Positions 15,452 to 56,115 of a DNA stretch of 64,000 bases are shown here, in pieces. This stretch comes from Desertibaculum subflavum. GTDB taxonomy: Bacteria > Pseudomonadota > Alphaproteobacteria > Ferrovibrionales > Ferrovibrionaceae. Made by a program: the position numbers and the translations under genes. The stretch spans positions 1 through 64,000 of the forward strand of contig QOZS01000026.1 of assembly GCA_003576705.1 (NCBI GenBank), written 5' to 3'. Every line of letters starts with the position of its first letter. Position 1 is the stretch's first letter. The notes under the pieces are model-generated. The model worked only from the letters and a program-made list of their open reading frames with translations. It had not been told where the DNA came from and did no database searches.

Positions 15452-16141
15452 CTAGTTCCGGCGCCGCGCGGCGCCGAGACCGGCCAGCCCGATGGCCAGC
15501 AAGGCCAGCGTGCCGGGTTCCGGCACCTCCAGCGGCCAGTTGAGCGCGATCCATTCTAGATCGAAGTGGAAATAGGCGGCGCCCTCCGCCCCGTAGGTCG
15601 AGAAATTGGCGATGGTGATATCCTGTGCCGGATCGACCAGATACATGAAGGAATCGGTCAGGTCGCCGCTCGGCGTGACATCGTGCAGGGCGCTGTAGAC
15701 CCAGAGCGAGGCGTCGATCTGCTGCGGCGAGGTGGAACCGGCGGTGTCGGCGAGCAGCGCGTCATAGGCGCCGGGAACGCCATCCAAGGCCGGCAGATAG
15801 TCGACCAGGCCGGCGTTATAGGCGGCGGCGCCGGAATAGCCGGAGCGGGTGATGCCGGCGACGGTCAGGCTGACGAAAGTGCCCTGCGGATGTGGGCCGT
15901 AATAGATGCCCCCGTGGGGCGGATCGGTATCGGCTGTCGTGGCCGTGTCGGTGTCGACGGTGATGCTCATGGTCCAGCGCTGGCCGACCAGCGCATCCTC
16001 CACCACCGGGCTGTAGAGGCCATCGAAATCCCGGCTGAGGATTACCGTGCCGCCGCCGGAGATCGTGAATACGACAGCCTCGGCAGGCGTGGCGGCAAGG
16101 AAAGCGAGGGCCGTGATGACGGCCGCCAGCGGTCGAAGCAT
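15452..16141 (-). CDS. PEP-CTERM sorting-domain protein 1
   Basis: A 229 aa exported protein. It has an N-terminal signal peptide ending near ATPAEA, a beta-rich body, and at the C terminus the tripartite PEP-CTERM signal VPEPGTLALLAIGLAGLGAARRR: motif, hydrophobic helix, basic end. Exosortase (EpsH/XrtA family) cleaves such signals to release the protein to the cell surface or the exopolysaccharide matrix. No exosortase gene is in the window. GGGGGA precedes the ATG by 4 nt. A full-consensus sigma-54 promoter lies 74 nt upstream. It is a paralogue of the next gene at 16347. Confidence 0.88.
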   Translation of the reverse strand: MLRPLAAVITALAFLAATPAEAVVFTISGGGTVILSRDFDGLYSPVVEDALVGQRWTMSITVDTDTATTADTDPPHGGIYYGPHPQGTFVSLTVAGITRSGYSGAAAYNAGLVDYLPALDGVPGAYDALLADTAGSTSPQQIDASLWVYSALHDVTPSGDLTDSFMYLVDPAQDITIANFSTYGAEGAAYFHFDLEWIALNWPLEVPEPGTLALLAIGLAGLGAARRRN

Positions 16142-16214
16142 GCAATCCCCCAGACGCTAACATTGTACGGCCGGGCGCTGGTGGGCGGCCGGCTGCATGG
16201 CCCGGCTATAATGC

Positions 16215-16230
16215 AGCAAGCCACGTGCCA
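16215..16230 (-). promoter_or_regulatory. sigma-54 (RpoN) promoter of PEP-CTERM gene 1
   Basis: On the minus strand the site reads CTGGCACG-N4-TTGCT, the full sigma-54 -24/-12 consensus with GG and GC exactly 10 nt apart. Transcription would start near 16203, leaving a leader of about 60 nt to the ATG at 16141. An RpoN promoter requires an enhancer-binding activator. In known PEP-CTERM systems the PrsK/PrsR pair plays that part, but no such genes lie in this window. Confidence 0.8.
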
Positions 16231-16346
16231 GCCGCTGAAACCGGGGGCGGTGCGCCGGGGAGGTCACACGGTTGTAAAACGATCTGACAGCGAATCGCGC
16301 CTGGATCGCGCCGACAATGCAAGCATCGACCCGGCGCTATCGCAGC

Positions 16347-17036
16347 TCAGCCACGGCGCCGCACCATGCCGAGCGCGAACAGGCCGAGACCCAGCAGCGC
16401 CATCGCGCCCGGCTCCGCGACATCGATCACCGCTGCGTTGAGCGCGATCCAGGCCGGCGCGAAATAGAATTCGGCGTCGCCCTGCGGTCCGTTCGACATG
16501 AACTGTCCGGCCAGGATGTCGAGGTTCGGATCGACGGTATAGGTCAGCGTCTGTGTCGGGTCGCCGCCGCCGGCGACGAAGGGATTGACCAGGCTATAGA
16601 CCAGCTGCAGCGCCGAGACGAACTGCCCGCCGGCGCCGGTGCCTTCCGCCGAGCTGTCGATGCCGTCAAAGGGCAGGCCATCGATGCTGAGCGTGCCCTG
16701 GATCATACTGGCGAACGAGGTGCTGCCGCTGAAGCCGGAGAAGGTGGAACCGTCGACCGTGACGGAGACGAACACGGCACCGGGCGCGGCGCCGAAGGCA
16801 GCGAACGAGATGGGGTCGCCGATCTCGGTGCCGCCTGCGGTATCGACCGTCATCGTCATGGTGTAGCCGAGGCCGGCGAGGTCGCGCGGCGCCTGCGCGC
16901 CGAACAGGCCGAAATCGGTGCCGGCAAGGATAGTGCCGCCGGTGGTCACGTTGTACACCACCGCTTCCGCCGCGTTCGAGGCCAGAGCCAGCAGCCCGGC
17001 GCCGGCAATCATCGCGCCCTTCATGATGCTCATCAT
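16347..17036 (-). CDS. PEP-CTERM sorting-domain protein 2
   Basis: A 229 aa exported protein with a signal peptide (cleavage near NAAEA), a beta-rich glycine/serine-rich body and a C-terminal sorting signal beginning VAEPGAMALLGLGLFALG and ending MVRRRG. Ala replaces the usual Pro before the Glu of the PEP motif. It shares length, the opening VV(Y/F) after the signal peptide, the SxTVD/VTVDG strands and a WIALN block before the sorting signal with its neighbour at 15452, so the two are tandem duplicates. A second or third Met within MMSIMKG could be the true start. Function unknown; surface or matrix location is predicted. Confidence 0.87.
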   Translation of the reverse strand: MMSIMKGAMIAGAGLLALASNAAEAVVYNVTTGGTILAGTDFGLFGAQAPRDLAGLGYTMTMTVDTAGGTEIGDPISFAAFGAAPGAVFVSVTVDGSTFSGFSGSTSFASMIQGTLSIDGLPFDGIDSSAEGTGAGGQFVSALQLVYSLVNPFVAGGGDPTQTLTYTVDPNLDILAGQFMSNGPQGDAEFYFAPAWIALNAAVIDVAEPGAMALLGLGLFALGMVRRRG

Positions 17037-54968: not shown

Positions 54969-55164
54969 GGGCTACGGCGAAACGGTCGGCCGGCGATGGC
55001 GGCAGCCAGCGCCGGCATTCGTATTTGGGCGGCAAGAAGCGGCCCGGGCGGCAGGAATGGGCGAGGCGAGAGGGTAAATATTGCCGCCCGCCGCCGCTGG
55101 GCGGTTCCGTAGCGAAGAACCGTATGTATTTGATTTTGCTATAAAAATGCCTTTCTGAGCGGTT

Positions 55165-55180
55165 TGGCACAGCGGTTGCT
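55165..55180 (+). promoter_or_regulatory. sigma-54 (RpoN) promoter of the flagellin gene
   Basis: TTGGCAC-N5-TTGCT matches the -24/-12 consensus, with GG and GC exactly 10 nt apart. The predicted transcript start near 55191 leaves a leader of about 49 nt before the flagellin ATG, which has a GAAAGG-type ribosome binding site. Late flagellar genes of many alphaproteobacteria are RpoN-dependent. Confidence 0.82.
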
Positions 55181-55239: not shown

Positions 55240-56115
55240 ATGGCTGATCTCAGGCTGAGCGCCGCGGTGCGCAACAATCTGCTGTCGCTGCAGAACACGA
55301 CGAATTTCATCAACCGGACGCAGGACCGCCTGTCGACCGGCCTCAAGGTTTCCAGCGCGCTCGATGACGCGGTCGCCTTCTTCCAGGCGCAGGCACTGTC
55401 GAACCGCGCCTCCGACTTGAACGATCGCAAGGATGGCATCGACCAGGCAATCTCGACCCTCAAGGCCGCCAACAACGGCATCGAGGCGCTCGACAAGACG
55501 GTGAAGCAGCTCAAAGGCATTGCGACCAGCGCCAAGACCGCGTCGCAGAACGAGCAGGCGGACCTGACCAACCAGTTCCAGGAGCTGCTGAACCAGCTCG
55601 ACCAGATCGCGGGCGATTCGAGCTATCAGGGCCTTAACCTGCTGAACTCGACCGCGTCGCATCTGTCGGTGGAGTTCTCGACGCTCTCGACTTCGGTGCT
55701 GTCGGTGTTCGGTCGCAATCTGAACGTCTCCGGCATCTTCTCGGAGGCGACGGTGGTGTCGCTCGACGCGCAGTCGAGCCTGACCGCCTTCGGCGTCACC
55801 TATTCGGGCTTCTCGTCCATCGGCACGACTGTCAGCGCGGTCGACGACCTGATCGCGACGCTCGACAGCGGCATCGACAAGCTGCGCGGCGCGGCCAAGG
55901 CGCTCGGCAACAACGTCACCTTCCTGCAGACCCGTCTCGACTTCACCAAGAAGTACGTGAACGACTTGCGCGAGGGTTCCGACAAGCTGACGCTCGCCGA
56001 TATCAACGAGGAAGGCGCCAACCTGGTCGCGTTGCAGACCCGTCAGCAGCTCGGCATCCAGGCGCTGGCCTTCGCCGGCCAGGCCGAACAGTCGGTTCTG
56101 AGCCTGTTCCAGTAA
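55240..56115 (+). CDS. flagellin
   Basis: A 291 aa filament protein. The conserved N-terminal D0/D1 region (RLSAAVRNNLLSLQNTTNFINRTQDRLSTGLKVSSALDD) and the C-terminal D1/D0 region (LGNNVTFLQTRLDFTKKYVNDLREGSDKLTLADINEEGANLVALQTRQQLGIQALAFA) flank a short variable part (about 130-215). That gives a small flagellin without a large D2/D3. It has its own sigma-54 promoter and no other flagellar gene lies in the window, so it is a solitary filament gene. Confidence 0.93.
   Translation: MADLRLSAAVRNNLLSLQNTTNFINRTQDRLSTGLKVSSALDDAVAFFQAQALSNRASDLNDRKDGIDQAISTLKAANNGIEALDKTVKQLKGIATSAKTASQNEQADLTNQFQELLNQLDQIAGDSSYQGLNLLNSTASHLSVEFSTLSTSVLSVFGRNLNVSGIFSEATVVSLDAQSSLTAFGVTYSGFSSIGTTVSAVDDLIATLDSGIDKLRGAAKALGNNVTFLQTRLDFTKKYVNDLREGSDKLTLADINEEGANLVALQTRQQLGIQALAFAGQAEQSVLSLFQ

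Follow-up and report, generated by a model that had tools for sequence, protein, structure and literature searches.

A predicted PrsR/sigma-54 promoter module upstream of a PEP-CTERM protein gene in Desertibaculum subflavum

The basic logic by which PrsR and sigma-54 (RpoN) control PEP-CTERM protein genes is already known from published work. Here we compare with it a sigma-54 -24/-12 element of Desertibaculum subflavum, located upstream of a PEP-CTERM protein gene in a stretch of 64,000 nucleotides (nt) of contig QOZS01000026.1 (assembly GCA_003576705.1), called the window below. In the passages of Haft et al. 2006 (PMC1569441) on which we draw, a module precedes 99 of 167 PEP-CTERM genes of Proteobacteria. 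It consists of a 17-nt motif whose last bases are TTTACA and, after a spacer of 32-92 nt (mean 62.8), a sigma-54 motif; the start codon follows at a mean distance of 71 nt. There its distribution was matched to three proteins, PrsR (a response regulator), PrsK (a kinase) and PrsT (a tetratricopeptide repeat, TPR, protein), and the logic was predicted across Proteobacteria with the alphaproteobacterium Rhodospirillum rubrum as an example. Related systems are described from Aquincola tertiaricarbonis RN12, where the PEP-CTERM gene pepA depends on RpoN1 and its transcript start was mapped just behind TGGCAC/CTGCTT (PMC9850573), and from Zoogloea resiniphila, whose PepA depends on RpoN with PrsK/PrsR according to the summary in PMC9012009.

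As far as these accounts go, the window resembles the Aquincola and Zoogloea systems in having a PEP-CTERM gene under presumed RpoN control, PrsK/PrsR in the genome and a -24/-12 element before the gene. Those systems are betaproteobacterial and experimentally tested, whereas that of the window is known from its sequence, and the window protein scores 28 bits against the floc_PepA model, far below the cut-off of 80. The architecture is the same as that of the Haft module, with a spacer (41 nt) below the mean of 62.8 nt. R. rubrum is reported in the same passages to have one PEP-CTERM gene, while the D. subflavum genome has about 28 over the Pfam cut-off. The initial annotation had expected the RpoN/PrsK/PrsR logic of some betaproteobacteria to apply here as well; the parts are indeed present, but the R. 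rubrum example means that this logic is not newly seen in alphaproteobacteria.

The promoter module and its gene

The element CTGGCACGTGGCTTGCT occupies positions 16215-16231 on the minus strand and matches YTGGCACGN4TTGCW with zero mismatches. Read from 16231 to 16215, it consists of CTGGCACG, then TGGC as the N4, then TTGCT, and it carries the -24 GG and -12 GC of motif 2 of the module. No other exact match occurs in the window, where shuffles give 0.01 expected, and the complete -24/-12 element proposed by the initial annotation is thereby borne out. Its placement at 16215-16230 was right in location but one base short, 16231 being the Y of YTGG. The distance from the 3' end of the element to the ATG at 16141 is 73 nt, which agrees with the normal distance claimed earlier and lies within the limits of 23-221 nt given in the passages of Haft et al. 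2006. If one or two mismatches are allowed, sigma-54 look-alikes turn up in the window at about the chance rate, with no excess, so it is the exactness of the site that counts.

A second part of the module was overlooked in the initial annotation. Upstream of the element, with 41 nt between them, lies a predicted PrsR box (Haft motif 1), TGTCAGATCGTTTTACA, at 16273-16289 (minus strand); this 17-nt sequence has the form TGTCA-N6-TTTACA, and the D. subflavum genome itself served to define the first half of the pattern. The box pattern matches once in the window, with 0.02 expected. The spacer (16232-16272, minus strand) falls within the 32-92 nt range. When position weight matrices were built without the window site (leave-one-out), the box scored 20.4 bits and the sigma-54 part 18.2, a sum of 38.6, against 23.4 bits for the best place outside PEP-CTERM promoters and the exosortase locus in 768 kb of strand. 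The predicted two-part RpoN/PrsR architecture is complete at this site. Chance resemblance in GC-rich DNA could be argued from the look-alikes, which do arise at about the chance rate; against it stand an exact 17-nt site and an exact box, each with 0.01-0.02 expected per window, found together upstream of the predicted class of gene, and we regard it as extremely improbable.

The gene downstream (15452-16141, minus strand) encodes a protein of 229 amino acids (aa) with a signal-peptide-like N-terminus and the C-terminal VPEPGTLALLAIGLAGLGAARRRN. Its assignment as a PEP-CTERM protein stands, with scores over both curated cut-offs (PF07589, 31.6 bits versus 20.7; TIGR02595, 26.0 versus 16). The promoter would drive this gene from a predicted start at 16204 (minus strand), about 12 nt downstream of the -12 GC by the usual sigma-54 geometry, and a possible Shine-Dalgarno sequence, GGGGGA, lies at 16146-16151 (minus strand), 4 nt before the ATG. 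Whole-protein scores against the named PEP-CTERM subfamilies (PepA, THxN, EDSAP-1 and others) were all far below cut-off, the matches covering the C-terminal part only, and structure prediction gave no reliable model, with a mean pLDDT (predicted local distance difference test) of 34. Among 60 relatives there were no convincing orthologues, only a tandem paralogue and one weak C-terminal match, and a phylogenetic footprint of the promoter was therefore not possible.

Protein parts and the regulon in the genome

Genome-wide statements in this study come from pattern and family searches together with about 384 kb of sequence. The genome encodes one RpoN (contig C64) and a single exosortase, which is of the XrtA type (TIGR03109, 307 bits versus a cut-off of 208) and fused to an EpsI domain (TIGR02914, 96.9 versus 42.8). 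Beside it on contig C78 stand, in order, an XrtA-type amidotransferase (TIGR03108, 979.6 bits), PrsK (534.6 versus 300), PrsR (641.6 versus 502.6), PrsT (651 versus 312.2) and a glycosyltransferase (TIGR03013, 495.5 bits), the two enzymes also scoring over their cut-offs; the XrtA-type exopolysaccharide genes and the exosortase thus form one gene row. Since the window is on contig C52, these genes are unlinked to it, which is what the initial annotation had predicted for the exosortase and a PrsR-like activator, and the RpoN, exosortase and PrsR homologues on which that prediction depended are all there. PrsR-like regulators on contigs C103, C117 and C89 scored below the model cut-off and were rejected as PrsR. 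The presence of GcrA and the close relatives of PrsR in Erythrobacter, Sphingomonas and Acetobacteraceae support an alphaproteobacterial host. GcrA matched only Caulobacter and, oddly, Sulfolobus among 14 control genomes, and the nearest PrsR, at 79% identity, is in a metagenome-assembled genome.

Other PEP-CTERM genes of the genome share the element, as the earlier reading had suggested checking. The full two-part module was found in 11 of the 26 PEP-CTERM upstream regions examined, with scores of 35-45 bits; L021 is among these although its box was outside the training set. At another five PEP-CTERM genes a sigma-54-like site is accompanied by a weak box at best, and about ten more lack both parts. 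Across all 5.67 Mb of the genome there are 12 copies of the core TGGCACN5TTGCW, as against 2 of the reversed pattern. The strict whole-module pattern is found at six places, five of them PEP-CTERM promoters (that of the window included) and one in the exosortase locus, while the reversed control gives none. The module of the exosortase locus (L059 10454-10905; G000:C78:118453-118904) has a 62-nt spacer, and the frame after it encodes a small membrane protein of 70-114 aa, depending on the start chosen, with no clear family match.

Co-occurrence with PrsR and spacing across genomes

We compared 385 genomes of the class Alphaproteobacteria. The strict module was found in 26 of them and the reversed control pattern in one; PrsR scored over its cut-off in 31. 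Modules are present in 21 of the 31 genomes with PrsR versus 5 of the 354 others (Fisher p ~1e-22). A crude C-terminal motif flagged a PEP-CTERM-like frame directly downstream at 26 of 49 module loci, a count that is only rough because the rule both misses and mis-assigns genes: it missed L078, which precedes a known PEP-CTERM gene, and the frames for L080 and L171 are spurious, the real downstream gene of L080 being the window gene. In six genomes of one alphaproteobacterial family (L184, L185, L186, L198, L200, L204) the module, with a 43-44-nt spacer, precedes the gene of a membrane protein that is conserved and about 80 aa long. L185, the single member that was scanned, matches nothing in Pfam or NCBIfam. 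Judging by its promoter, this gene is a putative PrsR target outside the PEP-CTERM proteins.

These distributions bear on whether the window's -24/-12 element, itself genuine, could be under a sigma-54 activator other than PrsR. The genome has at least four more NtrC-like regulators whose matches to the PrsR model fall below its cut-off, and PEP-CTERM genes are not the only ones that sigma-54 serves. The window itself has a second site with a perfect core, TTGGCACAGCGGTTGCT, at 55164-55180 (plus strand), with 59 nt between its end and a flagellin gene (55240-56115; PF00669/PF00700), and this site looks like a canonical flagellar RpoN promoter; a perfect sigma-54 site is therefore not specific by itself. 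Yet this near-identical -24/-12 element precedes a different class of target and lacks a PrsR box, whereas the PEP-CTERM promoters have box and spacing in common, and the module tracks PrsR across the class. We consider control by another activator improbable.

Spacing between box and promoter showed further structure. Distances from the box to the -24 TGG cluster at 42-44, 50-54, 60-66, 72-74 and 82-85 nt. This rule was first noticed in data from the D. subflavum genome and the class, and a search across the phylum Pseudomonadota with a wider spacer range, which yielded 64 new modules, served as an independent test in which the relatedness of the genomes was only partly corrected. After exclusion of the dominant 60-66 class and removal of one orthologous promoter set, 83% of the 24 spacings tested fell no further than 1.6 nt from values spaced at multiples of 10.5 on either side of 62.7, against 28% expected, and none of 20,000 random draws gave equally strong phasing. 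Modules with 60-66-nt spacing often carry YAAN4YTGDW: at offset 30-33 in 35 of 58 such modules within the taxonomic class, and at offset 30-32 in 11 of the 26 found outside it, where shuffles give 0.07 expected. The motif resembles the reverse complement of the integration host factor (IHF) consensus. In D. subflavum it is found in three of nine spacers of 61-63 nt, so it is frequent and not required; the 41-nt spacer of the window has none, in which it differs from many spacers of 62-63 nt.

We lean towards the view that PrsR promoters of Pseudomonadota sit on a helical ruler, with the box set about 42, 52, 63, 73 or 84 nt upstream of the -24 TGG. The 60-66 class would often have an IHF-like bend at 30-32, while the short class, including the window promoter, would lack it and fire without IHF; the regulon would reach small membrane proteins that have no family name, one of them in the exosortase locus. 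Haft et al. (PMC1569441) gave spacing as a mean and a range, and helical steps and an IHF-like element are not mentioned in the passages of that paper used here. A search of open-access literature found no paper linking PEP-CTERM promoters with IHF; three papers contain both terms but, judged by their titles, deal with other subjects. Within that literature, helical spacing and the IHF-like site appear new as refinements of the published logic.

Proposed mechanism and significance

Very probably, the window holds a PEP-CTERM box module of the PrsR/sigma-54 type, with the -24/-12 site as its promoter half, and it would work as follows. Given the DNA elements and their statistics, the promoter set of the genome, the protein parts and the co-occurrence of module and PrsR that we observed, we infer PrsR binding, activation, the transcript start and protein sorting. 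The membrane kinase PrsK would phosphorylate PrsR, an NtrC-type activator, which would then bind its box, TGTCA-N6-TTTACA, at 16273-16289. With a spacer of 41 nt, which falls short of the common 62 nt by about two helical turns, PrsR would stay on the same DNA face with respect to the RpoN-RNA polymerase that waits at CTGGCACG-N4-TTGCT. ATP hydrolysis by PrsR would open the promoter, with the transcript beginning near 16204. The protein would be exported and then sorted, probably along with an exopolysaccharide, by the XrtA exosortase, whose gene lies with those of PrsK and PrsR on a different contig.

Several findings weigh against this account. The 41-nt spacing of the window promoter belongs to a minority class. 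A strong two-part module is missing from 15 of the 26 PEP-CTERM upstream regions examined, so that membership of the PEP-CTERM class alone does not predict PrsR/sigma-54 control. Five of the 26 genomes that carry the module (G179, G196, G225, G239, G271) lack a PrsR scoring over the cut-off; these may reflect incomplete assemblies, chance matches or another activator. In G225, which has five modules, an assembly gap is likely, since its genus also holds PrsR-bearing genomes. Finally, no sigma-54/PrsR module was found in the 300 nt upstream of the adjacent paralogue, which is among the 15 and lies upstream of the window gene.

This tandem paralogue (16347-17036, minus strand; 229 aa; PF07589, 21.1 bits) has 37% identity to the window gene by alignment and 40% by search. 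Its lack of a module suggests that the neighbours are probably under different regulation, and the pair is a possible case of regulation that diverged after duplication. Three tandem PEP-CTERM-like genes also occur elsewhere in the genome (G000:C44:31332-32828), the third below the Pfam cut-off, and the upstream regions of the first two are without a sigma-54 module. The two paralogues of the window are on the same strand and 205 nt apart, an arrangement in which most transcripts of the window gene could come from read-through of the upstream paralogue, or else from a promoter of the sigma-70 type, with the sigma-54 module minor or silent. But between the two genes lie two rare motifs whose spacing is permitted and in helical phase, as in ten other PEP-CTERM promoters of the genome, and we find it unlikely that they play so small a part, if marginally less so than control by another activator.

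The PrsR/sigma-54 reading of this locus extends the prediction of 2006 to a genome in which at least 11 of about 28 PEP-CTERM genes have the full module. It also illustrates that a single raw -24/-12 reading can predict a whole unlinked regulatory and sorting system. If experiments prove them true, helical spacing and the IHF-like site would allow a sharper search for PrsR targets and would provide a testable mechanistic difference between promoter classes.
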